Below are positions 1 to 64,000 of a stretch of DNA of 64,000 nt, piece by piece (within the stretch, counting starts at the first letter, position 1; each line of letters starts with the position of its first letter). A program made the translations under genes and the position numbers. Under the pieces are notes generated by a model. The model was not told the origin of the DNA. It saw nothing but the letters and a program-made list of their open reading frames with translations, and ran no database searches. The stretch covers positions 1-64,000 of the forward strand of contig JBDRUV010000006.1 in assembly GCA_039801505.1 (NCBI GenBank), written 5' to 3'. The stretch comes from a candidate division WOR-3 bacterium. GTDB taxonomy: Bacteria; Hydrothermota; Tepidihabitantia; Tepidihabitantales; CAIPLT01.

Positions 1-2
1 CG

Positions 3-209
3 GTGCGTTACAATGTACCGCAGACTGGTCGGGTGAGTCTGAAGCTTTACGATGCTTCTGGTCGGGTTGTGAGCACGCTGTATGAGGGCACACTTGAGGC
101 TGGTACTTATACCATGACTGTTGATGCCACGCGGTTAGCTCGTGGTGTCTACTTCTTAAAGTATGAGCAAGGCACTGAGAAGGCTGAAGTCAAGCTTCTG
201 GTGCGCTAA
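3..209 (+). CDS. Type IX sorting domain protein, C-terminal end (5' truncated)
   Basis: Only the last 68 or so residues of a larger gene lie in the window; the frame is open to the left edge, so the GTG at 3 is not a true start. The tail has the Por secretion-system sorting-domain pattern: a beta strand with a V-x-L-x-x-Y-D-A-S-G-R turn, a G-T-Y-T segment, L-A-R-G-V-Y-F-L-K-Y and a final K-L-L-V-R strand. In known families this domain directs a protein through the type IX system to the cell surface. The passenger domain is unknown. A strong terminator follows. Confidence 0.8.
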   Translation: MRYNVPQTGRVSLKLYDASGRVVSTLYEGTLEAGTYTMTVDATRLARGVYFLKYEQGTEKAEVKLLVR

Positions 210-221
210 CGAATGAGTGTC

Positions 222-256
222 CCTTGCGGGAAGGACTAACCTCCTTCCCGCAAAGG
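222..256 (+). other. Hairpin between gene end and terminator
   Basis: CCTTGCGGGAAGGA pairs with TCCTTCCCGCAAAGG across a 6-nt loop, with one bulged A. It lies just after the stop codon and before the T-tailed hairpin at 271-300. It could be a 3'-end stabilising stem or the first half of a tandem terminator. Confidence 0.6.
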
Positions 257-270
257 TGAGAAGTATCAAG

Positions 271-300
271 ACGGGGCTCATTTGAGCCCCGTTTTCTTTT
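271..300 (+). terminator. Rho-independent terminator
   Basis: ACGGGGCTCA and GAGCCCCGT form a 9-bp GC-rich stem with a tiny loop, followed directly by TTTTCTTTT. It ends transcription of the sorting-domain gene at 3-209. Confidence 0.9.
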
Positions 301-305
301 ATATA

Positions 306-629
306 CCCACCCAGGGAGCTACTCCCAGAGCCATTCCCTAAGCCACTCCCAGAACTACTCCCAGAGCCTATCCCGGAGCCACCCCCAAAGCCAGTCTCAT
401 AGTCAGTCCCAGAGCCATACCCAAAGCTAATCCCATAGCAACCCCCAGAGCTATACCCAGAGCTACTACGATAACCGATCCCAGAGCCATCCTCAGAGCT
501 ACTCCCATAACCACTCTGGGGGCTACTGGGGGAACTATACCATCCCTTTTGCCGATTTTTATCTAGCCATAAGAATATCAAGGGCTTAGCTTAAAATTTG
601 CCCCTTAAAAAACGTTACTTATAAGTAAC
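306..629 (-). repeat. Dispersed palindrome plus 12-bp-unit element, copy A
   Basis: From about 317 to 545 the plus strand is a run of about 18 degenerate 12-bp units resembling AGAGCCACTCCC. A conserved core of about 70 bp follows (TATCTAGCCATAAG... to ...TTAGCTTAAAATTT) and then a perfect 16-bp palindrome at 614-629 (GTTACTTATAAGTAAC). The same layout recurs at 39807-40120 (opposite strand) and 59613-59938. On the minus strand the 12-bp unit reads Gly-Ser-Ser-Ser-like and a TTG-initiated frame of 141 codons is open, but it has no clear ribosome-binding site and continues past the units through the terminator into the neighbouring gene. I therefore treat it as a repeat, not a gene. Bases 630-718 hold nothing recognisable. 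Confidence 0.85.
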
Positions 630-718
630 CTATTTTATGGTAATTGGGATGATAGCGAGTTAAAAGAAGTGTTGGCTTTGGGTAAAACAGATAGGGGGTA
701 TGGGGGAGTAAAATCTCT

Positions 719-3985: not shown

Positions 3986-4259
<274 letters not shown>

Positions 4260-6779: not shown

Positions 6780-8045
6780 ATGGAGGCGGAACAATTAAAA
6801 AAGAAGAAACTCCAAGAACTATACGAAATTGCTAAAAGCTTAAACATTCCTAATTACACCTCAAAAAAGAAGCAGGAGTTAGTAATGGCGATTCTAGAGG
6901 CGGAAGCGAAAGAAAAAACTGAGGCACCGGTTCAGGTAAGTGGGGTCCTCGAGGTATTGCCTGAGGGTTTTGGTTTTCTGCGTTCACCCGACTATAGTTA
7001 TCTACCAAGTTCCGATGATGTCTATGTAGCACCATCGCAGATTAAAAAATTTATGCTGAAAACCGGCGACACTGTAGTTGGACTGGCTCGGCCGCCGAAA
7101 AATGACGAGCGATATTTTGCTCTGCTACGCATTGAAAAGGTAAATGGCGATCCCTTATCAGTGCTTGAGGAACGGGTGCCCTTTGATGATTTAACACCCC
7201 TTTATCCCCAGGAACGGATTCGCTTAGAGATCGAAGACAATAAAGACAAAAATGACTTTTCCATGCGGATTGTTGACCTGTTTGTGCCAATTGGTAAGGG
7301 ACAGCGCGGACTGATTGTTTCGCCACCCCGAGCCGGTAAAACGATTCTCTTACAAAAAATTGCTAATAGCATCACAACTAACCATCCCGAGATCTATCTG
7401 ATTATTCTTTTGATCGATGAACGTCCGGAAGAGGTAACTGATATGGAACGGTCGGTAAAAGCCGAGGTGATTAGCTCGACGTTTGACGAAGTGCCCGAGC
7501 GGCATGTGGAGGTAGCTGATATTGTTTTAGAAAAAGCTAAGCGGCTTGTGGAACATAAGCGTGACGTGGTCATTTTATTAGATAGTATAACCCGTCTAGC
7601 CCGTGCGCATAATCTGGTGGTGCCGCATTCTGGTCGAACTCTTTCTGGAGGGTTAGATTCTAATGCCCTACAAAAACCCAAGAAATTTTTCGGCGCCGCT
7701 CGTAATATCGAAGAAGGCGGCAGTTTGACAATAATCGCTACTGCGTTAATTGATACTGGTTCTCGAATGGACGATGTGATATTTGAAGAGTTTAAGGGGA
7801 CCGGTAATATGGAGTTAGTACTCGATCGCCGCCTGGCCGACCGGCGACTGTTTCCGGCAATCGATTTACAAAAATCCGGAACCCGTAAGGAAGAGCTTCT
7901 GTTGTCGGAATTTGAACTTAATCGGATTTGGATTATTAGAAAATTACTGGCCGAGTTAAGTCCAATCGAAATGATGGAATTTATTATTGATAAAATGCGG
8001 CTTACTCGGAATAATTTAGAATTTTTAGAATCCATGAGTGAATAG
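6780..8045 (+). CDS. rho: Transcription termination factor Rho
   Basis: Rho is the hexameric RNA-dependent ATPase that terminates transcription. The N-terminal Rho_N helical domain (residues 1-45) is followed by the cold-shock-like RNA-binding domain ([14 protein letters not shown]) and the ATPase with P-loop P-P-R-A-G-K-T, the [10 protein letters not shown] motif and [10 protein letters not shown]. The 421-residue length is normal. The start is supported by AAAGGAG 6-7 nt upstream. It is followed within 8 nt by rpmE and then prfB. Confidence 0.97.
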
Positions 8046-39806: not shown

Positions 39807-40120
39807 TGTTAGTTATAACTAACACTTTTGTTAAGCAAATTTTTAAGCTAAGTCATTGATAGTCTCATGGCTAGGTAAAATCGGCTAAACAGGAGGTATA
39901 GTTCCACCAGTAGCCCCTACGTAGATCTGATAGTGACTTTGGGATAGGCTTTGAGTGTCGCTCTCAAGGTAGCTATAGAAGTAGCTTTGGGTATCGCTCA
40001 GGAGGTCGCTTTGGGATTAGCCTTGAGGGTGGCTTAGGAAATAGCTCAGGAAGCGGCTTTGGAAGTTGCTCTCATGGTAGCTCAGGGAACGGCTGAGGGA
40101 GCAGATATGGGGATGGCGGT
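39807..40120 (+). repeat. Dispersed palindrome plus 12-bp-unit element, copy B (inverted)
   Basis: The order is the mirror image of copies A and C: perfect 18-bp palindrome at 39807-39824 (TGTTAGTTATAACTAACA), the core (TTTTTAAGCTAAGT...ATGGCTAGGTAAAATCGG), then about fifteen 12-bp units of the type GGTAGCTCTGAG to about 40112. Two single-base deletions relative to A and C break the open frame in the conserved leader, but the 12-bp phase of the units is kept. Reading away from the element on the minus strand, TTAACA-17-TAACAT overlaps the palindrome. The remaining parts of 39722-40262 show nothing else recognisable. Confidence 0.82.
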
Positions 40121-59612: not shown

Positions 59613-59938
59613 CCCACCCAGGGAGTCGCTCCCAGAGCCATTCCCTAAGCCACTCCCAGAACTACTCTCAGAGCCTATCCCAGAGCCACTCCCGAAGCCA
59701 GTCAGATAGCCAGTCCCAGAGCCACACCCGAAGCTAATCCCATAGCAACCCTCAGAGCTATACCCAGAGCTACTACGAGAGCTAGTCCCAGAGCCACTCT
59801 CAGAGCTACTCCCAGAGCAACTCTGGGGGCTACTGGGGGAACTATACCATCCTTTTAGCCGATTTTTATCTAGCCATAAGACTATCAAGGATTTAGCTTA
59901 AAATTTGGCTTGACAAAAACATTAGTTATAACTAATGT
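59613..59938 (-). repeat. Dispersed palindrome plus 12-bp-unit element, copy C
   Basis: It is nearly collinear with copy A: CCCACCCAGGGAG at the left end, about seventeen 12-bp units, the core GATTTTTATCTAGCCATAAG...TTAGCTTAAAATTT, then a perfect 20-bp palindrome at 59919-59938 (ACATTAGTTATAACTAATGT). The minus-strand frame from TTG 59888 has 95 codons and begins with the same 20 or so residues as copy A (L-W-L-D-K-N-R, K-G-W-Y-S-S-P-S-S-P-Q-S). TTGACA-17-TAATGT overlaps the palindrome and points out of the element toward the gene at 60240. Confidence 0.86.
59910..59938 (+). promoter_or_regulatory. Promoter-like site overlapping the element C palindrome
   Basis: TTGACA at 59910-59915, 17-nt spacer, TAATGT at 59933-59938. 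The -10 is the right arm of the palindrome, so a dimeric protein bound there would block it. Nothing else is recognised from 59939 to 60045. Confidence 0.55.
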
Positions 59939-60045
59939 ATTTTATGTTTACTTTTACTAAAAACCTAATAGTTTGGGTAGGGTAAGGGAATGTTTGATGC
60001 AATGAAAAAACGATTACATCGAGTAAAATAACTTCTAAAGACCCC

Positions 60046-60239: not shown

Positions 60240-63200
60240 ATGAAGGTGTGTCAAGCAAAAATCAGGTTAAGCGTTGTGCTTGCAGTGTATCTTCTCTTGC
60301 CGGTTATTTTGTTAGGTGGTGTTAGGTTATCATGGGATAAGATTCATTCTTCGGCTCCCGGAGATGACAATGCGCAAGCGTTGGTAGTAGATAAATCGTA
60401 TGTTTATATAACCGGAAAGGATGTTACTTCTAGTAGTGAGGACATTACAACCTTAAAATGTAATTCTAATGGTGATATTGTCTGGACTAATACACTAAAT
60501 ATTCCCGCAACCAACGATGCCGGGGTGGCAATGGCCATGGATAGTTCCGGCAATATTTATGTGGCGGGCTATAAGGGCGCTGACTGGTTTATAGTTAAGT
60601 ATAATGCCTTATCTGGGGAAACACTATGGACTCGGACATACAATGGCCCGGGTGATAGCACCGATGTTGCGGTTAAAGTGCTATGCGATAATGGGGGTAA
60701 TGTCTATGTGACTGGTTATAGTATAGGTGCCGGGACTAGTTATGATTTTTTAACAATTAAGTATGACTCTAATGGCGATACCGTATGGGTAAGAAGATAT
60801 AATGGCCCAGACAACGGTGATGATCGAGCGACCGCAATCACAATTGATAACGATGGTAATGTCTATGTGACTGGTTATAGTATAGGTGCCGGGACTAGTT
60901 ATGATTTTTTAACAATTAAGTATGACTCTAATGGCGATACCGTATGGGTAAGAAGATATAATGGCCCAGTCAACGGTGATGATAGGGCAAATGCAATAAC
61001 TGTGGATGGCTCAGGTAATGTTTATGTGACTGGCTACCGGTATAGCAATAGTTATAATAAAGATCTCTTTACTATTAAATATAATTCACTTGGTGATACA
61101 GTATGGACAAGACTTTACCATTGGATGTACTGGATGGGTTATTATACTCCAGAGTTCGGAAGAGCAATATTTACTGATGCTGGTAATAACATCTATGTAT
61201 TAGGTACCGCTGTTGATGTCGCTAATAGTAATAATGAAAATATTTTGATTATTAAGTATAGTCCTAGTGGCGATTTACGATGGCTAATAAATTATAATGG
61301 TTATTATTACTTTAGTGACTGTTTTGGTGGTGCGGTTGTTACCGAAAATGGGAATATATACATTGCGAGCTATCAACAAGGAATAGGCTGGTGGGCCAAG
61401 GACTCCTTTGCTGCGATTAAATACGATTCTTCAGGAAACCTCAGGTGGGTTAAAAAACATTTAGCTAATTATGGTGGAGGTTATTCAGCGATCGGTATCA
61501 CTAGAGACTCAGGAAGCGTATATGTGTGTGGTACAAAAAATTTAGGCGGTTTCTCTTTGTGGCGTTATTATACGGTTAAATACAGTGAAATACCTGAAAT
61601 TTTAATTGTTCCCCCACGGTTTCAGATTGCGATGCCCAAAGGAGAAACTAAAGATACGACGATGCGGCTTTATAATACCGGTGATTGGATTTTGAACTGG
61701 AATTTAACAAAAGTGCCTGATGTTTCTTGGCTTTCGGTAGATCAAACCTCTGGTGCAATTAATGCTTCAGAATCTATGGATGTTTCTATAACTCTTAACA
61801 CTTCCGGATTAGATTTTGGCGTCTACGCTTGCACTTTACGGATCACTAGCAATGATTCGGTAAATCCCATCGTGGATATTCCGATCGAACTATCGGTTTT
61901 AAGGCCGCCAGAAATTTCAGTAACACCAACAAGTTTTAACATAACTTTAGTTCGAAATACAAGTAAAGATACTATTTTAAGCATCAGTAATAGTGGTGAG
62001 TTGCCATTATCCTGGAGTTTGACCGAGATCCCTAATGATGTAGACTGGTTGTCGGAATATCCGACCGCGGGTGAGATCCCGGCATCGGGCAATAGTAATC
62101 TTACAGTAAGTTTTGATGCCACCGGGCTGGAGGCTGGGGTATATGCATGCACGCTAAGAATTTCTAGTAATGACCCAGAAAACCCAATTGTTGATGTGCC
62201 GGTGGAGCTTACGGTTATTTTAAGACCACCAGAGATTTCGGTAACACCACTGAGTTTTAATTTAACCATGGCTGGCGGAGCCTTTTTAGATACTATTATC
62301 CGAATAAGTAATTCTGGTAATGAAGTCTTAACTTGTAGTCTAAGTATTGAACCTCCTGAATGGTGGATTTGGTTAAATACGGATTATGTCGAGATTTCTG
62401 AAATGACATATTTGGATGTGCCTATTTATACCAGCGAGCTGTATTATTGGGGCTCACCCTATGAATGCAATATAATAATTAGGTCAAACGATCCGAACGA
62501 TCCCGTGGTTGAAATACCGGTCACGATAAATATAATACCGCCGGAAATATCAGTTGAACCAACCAGTTTTAATTTTACCTTATATCGCGGTCAAACTAAA
62601 GATACAACTTTCCAACTCGTCAATCTGGGAACCGAGGGAGTTGATTTTGATATCTATACTGAACCGTATTCGGAGTGGATTGATCTGGCGTATTATGGAG
62701 GATGGCTAGAGCCGCAACAAGAGCTCGTAAATGGGTTAAGTATTTATACCGGCTGGTTATCAACAGGAACACACAGATGCACTTTACGGGTTTGGTATTA
62801 TGGTCAAATGTTTCATGAAGACATCATAGTAGAAGTAAATATATTGCCGACACCACAAATATCTATTTCGCCGTCCAATTTCAATATTGTCTTACCTCAA
62901 AATGTAACTAAAGATACGACATTAACAATTAGTAATACTGGTGATGCCTCGTTGTCTTGGAATTTAGCTGAGATACCAAATGCCAGCTGGTTAACTGAGT
63001 ATCCGACAACAGGTGAGATGCCGGCTTCGGGCAATAGTGATGTTACCGTGAGTTTTAACACTTTCGGGATGACGCCTGGGGTTTATAATACGACTTTGCG
63101 GTTCTCAAGCAATGATCCGTTAAATCCGGTGGTAGATGTACCGGTGGCGCTTACGGTTACTGGTCCGGTGATTTCAGTTAGTCCGAGTAGCTTCAGTTTG

Positions 63201-64000
63201 ACATTGGGTCAGAATGTTACAAAAGATACGACTTTAACTATAAGTAATCTTGGTAACGCTACCTTGAGTTGGAGTTTATCTGAAGTGCCACAGGTTGACT
63301 GGTTAACTGAGTATCCGACATCTGGTGAGATTCCCGGCTTAGATGAGACTAATGTTACATTAAGCGTTAATACCGAATGGCTATTACCAGGAGTTTATAG
63401 TTGTACGCTGCGGCTCTCAAGCAATGATCCGTTAAATCCGGTGGTAGATGTACCGGTGGCGCTTACGGTTACTGGTCCGGTGATTTCAGTTAGTCCGAGT
63501 AGCTTCAGTTTGACATTAGGTCAGAATGTTACAAAAGATACGACGCTTGTAATATATAATCAGGGTAATGCGACTTTAAGTTGGAGTTTAGCTGAGACAC
63601 CTACTGTTGATTGGTTAACTGAGTATCCGACAACAGGTGAGATTCCAGCTTCGGGCAATAGTGATGTGACCGTGAGTTTTAACACTTTCGGGATGACGCC
63701 TGGGGTTTATAATACGACTTTGCGGCTCTCAAGCAATGATCCGTTAAATCCGGTGGTAGATGTGTCGGTAACTTTAACAATTTCTGGAACACAGCGTCCG
63801 ATAATTTCTGTGGTGCCAAGTTCTATTGTTGTCGTTTTAGACAAGGGGTTAAGTAAAGATACCACCTTAACAATTAGGAATTTGGGTAATGTGATGCTAA
63901 CTTGGAATTTGGAGGAATTATCCGAAGTCAATTGGCTTTCCGAGGATCCGACTTCAGGCGAGATTTTCCCTGATAGTAGTGTAAATATTACAATTAGTTT
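60240..64000 (+). CDS. Giant secreted beta-propeller and Ig-like repeat protein (3' truncated)
   Basis: The frame is open from ATG 60240 (GGGAGGAG upstream) to the window edge, over 1250 codons. A signal peptide of about 30 residues is followed by a propeller of SBBP-type repeats from about 60340 to 61590 (D-G-N-V-Y-V-T-G-Y-S; T-I-K-Y-D-S-N-G-D-T-V-W). Then come about eight Ig-like or BACON-like units of about 104 residues (I-S-V-x-P-x-S-F; D-T-T-L-x-I-S-N-x-G; L-x-W-x-L; L-R-x-S-S-N-D-P-x-N-P-V-V-D-V-P-V). Segments 60696-60810 and 60855-60969 are almost identical (159-bp period), as are segments repeating every 312 bp after 63103. A sorting domain is likely beyond the window. Confidence 0.9.
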   Translation, partial: MKVCQAKIRLSVVLAVYLLLPVILLGGVRLSWDKIHSSAPGDDNAQALVVDKSYVYITGKDVTSSSEDITTLKCNSNGDIVWTNTLNIPATNDAGVAMAMDSSGNIYVAGYKGADWFIVKYNALSGETLWTRTYNGPGDSTDVAVKVLCDNGGNVYVTGYSIGAGTSYDFLTIKYDSNGDTVWVRRYNGPDNGDDRATAITIDNDGNVYVTGYSIGAGTSYDFLTIKYDSNGDTVWVRRYNGPVNGDDRANAITVDGSGNVYVTGYRYSNSYNKDLFTIKYNSLGDTVWTRLYHWMYWMGYYTPEFGRAIFTDAGNNIYVLGTAVDVANSNNENILIIKYSPSGDLRWLINYNGYYYFSDCFGGAVVTENGNIYIASYQQGIGWWAKDSFAAIKYDSSGNLRWVKKHLANYGGGYSAIGITRDSGSVYVCGTKNLGGFSLWRYYTVKYSEIPEILIVPPRFQIAMPKGETKDTTMRLYNTGDWILNWNLTKVPDVSWLSVDQTSGAINASESMDVSITLNTSGLDFGVYACTLRITSNDSVNPIVDIPIELSVLRPPEISVTPTSFNITLVRNTSKDTILSISNSGELPLSWSLTEIPNDVDWLSEYPTAGEIPASGNSNLTVSFDATGLEAGVYACTLRISSNDPENPIVDVPVELTVILRPPEISVTPLSFNLTMAGGAFLDTIIRISNSGNEVLTCSLSIEPPEWWIWLNTDYVEISEMTYLDVPIYTSELYYWGSPYECNIIIRSNDPNDPVVEIPVTINIIPPEISVEPTSFNFTLYRGQTKDTTFQLVNLGTEGVDFDIYTEPYSEWIDLAYYGGWLEPQQELVNGLSIYTGWLSTGTHRCTLRVWYYGQMFHEDIIVEVNILPTPQISISPSNFNIVLPQNVTKDTTLTISNTGDASLSWNLAEIPNASWLTEYPTTGEMPASGNSDVTVSFNTFGMTPGVYNTTLRFSSNDPLNPVVDVPVALTVTGPVISVSPSSFSLTLGQNVTKDTTLTISNLGNATLSWSLSEVPQVDWLTEYPTSGEIPGLDETNVTLSVNTEWLLPGVYSCTLRLSSNDPLNPVVDVPVALTVTGPVISVSPSSFSLTLGQNVTKDTTLVIYNQGNATLSWSLAETPTVDWLTEYPTTGEIPASGNSDVTVSFNTFGMTPGVYNTTLRLSSNDPLNPVVDVSVTLTISGTQRPIISVVPSSIVVVLDKGLSKDTTLTIRNLGNVMLTWNLEELSEVNWLSEDPTSGEIFPDSSVNITIS

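Follow-up and report, generated by a model that had tools for sequence, protein, structure and literature searches.

A probable palindromic XRE repressor operator and a 12-nucleotide phased array in a dispersed intergenic element of a WOR-3 bacterium

There is a strong case that the perfect palindrome in each copy of a dispersed intergenic element from a candidate division WOR-3 bacterium is the operator of an XRE repressor promoter. Within the 64-kb stretch of DNA analysed here, which we refer to as the window, the element occurs three times, and in each copy a spacer separates the palindrome from an array of units phased at 12 nt. We tentatively favour an explanation in which the copies are upstream control regions of autoregulated XRE repressor genes that have themselves been lost, and in which the array is a ladder bound by protein; the operator part of this explanation is much more certain than the ladder part. 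The frame of the initial annotation, which had described a palindrome, a core of about 70 bp and degenerate 12-bp units, is too narrow in that the palindrome is the operator and promoter of a diversified XRE repressor family. Two points depart from that description: In the window, no partner gene follows the palindrome, and between genomes the core keeps its length as a spacer rather than its sequence.

Copies in the window, the genome and related genomes

All three copies, together with the palindromes described for them, are present in the window (A, 306-629; B, 39807-40120, inverted; C, 59613-59938; parts listed in Table 1) and account for three of its five perfect palindromes of at least 14 bp. 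Copies A and C are 89% identical over their full length; copy B aligns at 74% identity in its palindrome-proximal part only and indeed carries the two 1-nt gaps that had been reported to break its minus-strand frame. The 12-nt phasing of the three arrays corresponds to z-scores of 10.9, 10.2 and 7.7, compared with 2.4 for the next best position in the 64-kb background, and TRF resolved the arrays of A and C into about 16-17 units. At the copies, Rfam yielded no known RNA family. In copy C, the promoter of the lost gene overlaps the palindrome.

Table 1. Parts of the three element copies, in window coordinates.
Copy	Feature	Position	Strand	Basis
A	Perfect palindrome GTTACTTATAAGTAAC, operator of the lost XRE gene	614-629	.	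Symmetry, compensating changes
A	Fixed-length spacer (core of the initial annotation), includes a UP/-35-like stretch	545-613	.	
A	Conserved motif GATGGTATAGTTCCCCCAGTAGCCC, array start	520-544	-	
A	12-nt phased array, ~17 units	306-519	.	
A	XRE gene-start remnant (MVIGMIAS stop)	637-663	+	Sequence; compare copies F and I and intact genes
B	Perfect palindrome TGTTAGTTATAACTAACA, operator	39807-39824	.	
B	Spacer, 1 nt shorter than in the other copies	39825-39894	.	
B	Motif GGTATAGTTCCACCAGTAGCCCC, array start	39895-39920	+	
B	Decayed 12-nt phased array, period-12 z 20	39921-40120	.	
C	Perfect palindrome ACATTAGTTATAACTAATGT, operator	59919-59938	.	
C	Promoter of the lost XRE gene: TTGACA 59910-59915, 17 bp, TAATGT 59933-59938	59910-59938	+	Sequence; intact genes alike
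C	XRE gene-start remnant (MFTFTKNLIVWVG stop)	59944-59985	+	Intact paralogues begin MFVFTKEMAELL or similar
C	Fixed-length spacer	59854-59918	.	
C	Motif GATGGTATAGTTCCCCCAGTAGCCC	59829-59853	-	
C	12-nt phased array, ~18 units	59613-59828	.	

The window additionally contains the transcription terminator gene rho (6780-8045; TIGR00767, 670 bits), an SRP RNA (3986-4259) that, in this bacterial genome, is matched best by the archaeal SRP family of Rfam, and long tandem repeats (159 bp and 312 bp; 60696-61082 and 62987-63763), which are likely protein domain repeats.

The element is dispersed and intergenic, as described. Used as query against the complete assembly (G000; 1.94 Mb in 57 contigs), copy C revealed further copies at C28:7805, C1:147604, C3:115028 and C3:72375, a short one at C1:479837, and two half-copies at C7:60689 and C53:1, each of which ends at a contig end and which are probably one split copy. 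With these roughly seven additions, the genome holds about ten copies of 74-92% identity at mostly unrelated loci. Four more sites carry an operator-like palindrome, some together with spacer and start motif (e.g. GGTACAGTCCCCTACACGG); a 12-nt phase was not detectable at these four. Copies A, F and H (window 1-305, L005, L007) have a flank in common that comprises the end of a T9SS-type C-terminal gene and a terminator hairpin; because of these common flanks, part of the copy spread reflects ordinary, larger duplication. Beyond this genome, the element occurs in G001 (same genus), in G002 and G004 (same family) and in G005 (same order, another family), most of the genomes being fragmented assemblies in which several copies stop at contig ends. 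In the scan of sequence collections, matches other than those in G002 and G005 were chance occurrences in unrelated sequence. A phage or plasmid origin was rejected: blastn against phage and plasmid collections returned no match, and the viral pattern matches were due to chance and lay in other sequence.

The palindrome as probable operator of an XRE repressor gene

The gene that is missing from the window can be seen in the relatives. In G001, G002 and G005, intact XRE helix-turn-helix genes lie directly past the palindrome, where the G005 sequence reads as an XRE gene start (ATG TTT AAT TTC ACC AAA GAA ATG GCA). The relatives' full genes encode about 310-330 aa (~315 aa), and G005 gave 23 family matches. 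The G000 copies are followed by gene remnants only, such as MFTFTKNLIVWVG-stop in C and MVIFTKEMAEKPKKIRTDS-stop in F; since nothing but this remnant of the first codons is left, the window copies can be regarded as orphan control regions. One XRE gene of the family is present in G000, and its operator differs from those of the solo elements. Pfam assigned the relatives' genes to HTH_31/HTH_3, and no domain beyond the HTH was found in them. AlphaFold predicted a confident all-helical protein (pLDDT 87, pTM 0.56), for which Foldseek returned good overlap confined to HTH domains, e.g. those of C.BclI and ClgR; the C-terminal part is a predicted all-helical extension without a confident structural match. 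Downstream genes and sequence vary from copy to copy, and neither a motor protein nor any other constant neighbour was found there.

At the relatives' XRE genes, the palindrome overlaps the -10 box (TTGAYW-16/17-TAATNT or TATACT), and a promoter of the type TTGAYW-16/17-TATACT, TAATAT or TAATGT, with boxes identified by eye, is present at most of the intact genes inspected. The promoter-overlapping palindromes differ among paralogues (CATTAGTTATAACTAATG, ACATTAGTTTAAACTAATGT, ATATTACTGATCAGTAATAT, AGTATACTGCCAGTATACT, TGTGCCTAATAGGCACA, GTATATTATTAATATAC), those of family f3 being GTCTACTTTAAAGTAGAC and TATACTTTAAAGTATA. Selection on their symmetry, proposed earlier from compensating changes among the window copies, is borne out by covariation of the arms at 28 sites: The +/-8 pair, not covered by the 14-bp search pattern, shows complementarity in 27 of the 28 (A-T, G-C or T-A; P 1.5e-7 against column composition, a value that is optimistic because the 28 sequences are related), and the pair at +/-4, the position where the pattern permitted asymmetry, is complementary in equally many (27/28), as G-C or C-G. 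Arms varying without compensating changes did not occur. A dimeric protein site, one of the two possibilities originally put forward, is the best reading of the symmetric element; judging from its anatomy, it would be the dimer site at which the XRE protein shuts off the gene that encodes it. The anatomy is standard for an autorepressor operator, at which binding of the protein is predicted.

An array and a spacer that keep their register and length

Past the spacer, the array extends over about 250 nt and comprises about twenty 12-base steps. Its unit is GTAGCTCTGGGA in G000, GCAGACTCGGGA in most G005 copies and roughly GTAGGCTGGCTG in another G005 copy; units are alike within a genome and different between genomes, and within an array the unit sequence is conserved in G000 and G005, not in G002 and G004. 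The latter two have no visible repeat, yet lags of 12, 24, 36 and 48 are the strongest, and 12 is the best of the periods 7-17 in every element tested, including arrays without visible repeats. The G002 solo elements L084 and L085 are 55% identical over about 290 nt in an alignment that is gap-free from end to end; codon-position bias is absent and all six frames are stopped, with period 12 and length kept. In genus g6, two species can be compared at an orthologous locus (L129/L133): Array and spacer have diverged far beyond the downstream flank, and the gaps sum to zero, leaving the length unchanged overall. From the gap-free L084/L085 alignment, the period 12 without repeats and the L129/L133 divergence, we conclude that the register is kept and the sequence is not. 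Because the aligner adds small offsetting gaps at permissive gap costs, with a few net differences outside or at the ends of the arrays, the claim is one of near-constant length and register and not of zero indels. What had initially been described as 12-bp units is consequently conserved in period but not in unit sequence. Substitution-only hypermutation was considered and discarded, the substitution spectrum being ordinary (Ts/Tv ~0.9-1.5).

Period 12 also marks the upstream regions of more distant XRE genes, from other families within the order, whose units are their own; examples are L118 (AATCCCAAGTGG), L125 (AAGGTCTCTGGC), L135 and L129. A period-12 score above 5, from which codon-type periods are subtracted, was obtained for 18 of 30 XRE-family upstream regions, a non-random set of loci returned by the search, and for none of 90 controls; statistics on related sequences such as these overstate independence. 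The array is absent in the family members L110, L111 and L115.

Measured from the centre of the operator, the GGTA motif lies 79-81 nt away in G000, G002, G004 and, with one exception, the scored G005 copies, and the sequence in between is quite different from genome to genome. Since its length is fixed and its sequence replaced, the conserved core of the initial annotation holds as a sequence only within one genome; across genera, its length is what is conserved.

Proposed mechanism and alternative explanations

In the explanation that we tentatively favour, an XRE dimer would bind the palindrome at the -10 box and thereby repress its own gene. With less confidence, and by analogy, we infer that the array could be a DNA ladder offering a place to an identical protein unit every 12 bp, the occupant being either the XRE protein itself, with its all-helical C-terminal extension, or a host protein. 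The bound units would form a cooperative filament that starts at or near the operator. Like TubR or ParR bound to upstream iterons, this filament would serve to mark the locus or to silence it, and the orphan copies would provide additional binding sites. As the proteins would occupy every 12 bp as a filament, spacing would matter and sequence hardly would. The reader of the array is probably something common to the genome rather than the copy-specific HTH domain, because G005 genes with different operators have one unit in common. Further points count against this explanation: A step of 12 bp does not correspond to the helical repeat of DNA, solo elements persist where no gene with a matching operator was found, no motor protein or other constant neighbour accompanies the element, and some family members lack the array. 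Somewhat less probable in our view is a reading in which the array is a cis-element with little conserved beyond its period: about twenty twelve-base steps over about 250 bp, set at a fixed distance from a repressor operator, free to change in sequence (at one orthologous locus faster than the downstream flank) yet constant in length and register, associated with an XRE family across one order and present in many copies per genome. It would be read by a machine that measures 12-nt steps along DNA or RNA.

Several other explanations deserve to be weighed against the bound ladder. If the arrays were functionless satellites that arose by slippage of a 12-nt unit, with a period that is now fading, beside a coincidentally mobile repressor gene, one would understand why units are similar within and different between genomes and why several G000 copies are eroded to operator and motif; however, sequences that have decayed to 55% identity would hardly have stayed free of net indels over about 290 nt without selection, several genera keep the phase, and a single gene family is associated with the period, as the comparison with the controls indicates, so that we regard this as unlikely. 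The copy number, identity and mostly unrelated loci in G000 would also suit a MITE in which a trans-acting transposase recognises the palindrome and the array as ends, but terminal inverted repeats are absent, the palindrome is found at one end only, neither a linked transposase gene nor a common right end past the gene stop is present, and the flanks shared by A, F and H assign part of the spread to ordinary duplication, all of which makes a MITE very unlikely. The array as a decayed Gly/Ser-type protein-coding repeat is highly improbable. The minus-strand frame, in which a Gly/Ser-rich peptide had initially been recognised, is open through the arrays of A and C, and tetrapeptide repeats can be read in several genomes; however, substitutions are spread evenly over the codon positions (0.117, 0.101 and 0.113 per position), peptides from the equivalent frame of relatives are unrelated, and the six stopped frames in G002 leave period and length untouched. 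With no codon pattern in the substitutions, the peptide is not supported as a gene product, and its open frame is expected from unit composition, with stop counts that match column shuffles.

Two further alternatives place the function of the array in RNA. For a time we favoured a Rho utilisation site, at which read-through RNA would be terminated in the AT-rich spacer before the repressor promoter. In rut sites, C exceeds G and cytosines recur every 11-13 nt (PMC6407284). The visible arrays of G000 and G005 all have C/G ratios of 1.3-2.8 in the direction of the repressor gene, and the rho gene lies inside the window itself. In these visible arrays, such a cytosine spacing would follow from the 12-nt period. 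Against Rho, G exceeds C in L084 and L088 and the skew is absent in L085, with the 12-nt phase kept, the units of L118 and L125 are not C-rich, and the nearest upstream genes have no orientation bias. Moreover, since Rho tolerates spacing changes, it leaves the near-absence of net indels unexplained. Failing in three G002 elements and in distant family members, this reading now appears quite improbable to us. Transcription of the array away from the repressor, yielding a structured or protein-sponging RNA with CsrB-like GGA repeats, is distinctly unlikely. It draws on strong folding of the G-rich strand in the G000 copies A, C, D and E (z -3.3 to -5.6) and on GG runs each 12 nt in G000 and G005, but the fold z is about 0 or positive in G5_L095, L105, L106, L139 and L148, predicted folds differ between copies, and inspection by eye gave no good outward promoter with 16-18 bp spacing. 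A structured outward RNA was rejected with strong folding limited to those four copies, and against a CsrA sponge stand the many G002 units without GGA.

Comparison with known systems

In ParR/parC and TubR/tubC, an upstream tandem array is bound repeat by repeat by a small DNA-binding protein, a filament or superhelix is formed, and the operon promoter is repressed by the same protein (PMC5016525). The WOR-3 element is like parC and tubC in layout only, a direct-repeat array standing upstream of the gene of a DNA-binding, here putative, autorepressor. It lacks a ParM/TubZ-type motor gene and differs in being chromosomal and multi-copy, with a separate palindromic operator, a fixed spacer and, in G002 and G004, a unit sequence that is not conserved within the array. 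With XRE/cI-type autorepressors (C.BclI, ClgR, HipB and similar), the family shares the HTH fold, by Pfam and structure, and a palindromic operator over the promoter, whereas the all-helical C-terminal extension, the upstream phased array and the many paralogues with differing operators set it apart. The likeness to Rho rut sites, i.e. C-rich and G-poor units with 12-nt spacing, is confined to the G000 and G005 copies, for several relatives lose the excess of C over G yet keep the phase. Like MITE/REP-type repeats, the element is short, intergenic, multi-copy and equipped with a palindrome; unlike them, it has no terminal inverted repeats, is tied to the control region of a gene family and contains an internal phased array. 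CsrB-type sponge RNAs similarly have about 18-22 GG-containing repeats on one strand, but GGA is not conserved here and no outward promoter was seen. In contrast to type III toxin-antitoxin systems, the promoter lies between array and gene and not upstream of the repeats, and the gene encodes no toxin domain, only an HTH. Among open-licence papers, we found no description of a repressor site combined with a fixed spacer and a phased 12-base array.

If register is the conserved trait, elements of this kind escape ordinary similarity searches, and something in these cells would measure 12-nt steps across hundreds of bases. A single genome that contains paralogous repressors whose operators differ also offers naturally occurring material on the divergence of operator specificity. 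Few regulatory systems are known from this lineage, in which the abundance of orphan copies suggests a role that is selfish or organises the chromosome.

Further features of the element

The spacers of G002, G004 and G005 have a weak 7-nt periodicity; those of L083-L106 contain 7-nt quasi-repeats of several unrelated types (e.g. CGTCAATCGCTTATCGTATTTTCGTC, CTAACAACCAATAACTAACAACTAA), whose position is the same across copies. An additional inverted repeat, at a distance of about 80-90 nt from the operator, occurs at some loci (L121, L129 and L126) but not consistently and is not claimed here. At L098:3276-3635, an XRE-family-like C-terminal fragment ends at the distal side of the array, which suggests that tandem units are possible. 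Several G002 and G004 arrays (L078, L080, L085, L087 and L088) are closed by a distal motif, CACTCGGAAAA or CACATGGAAAA, which lies about 331-343 nt after the operator and in register with the 12-nt steps.
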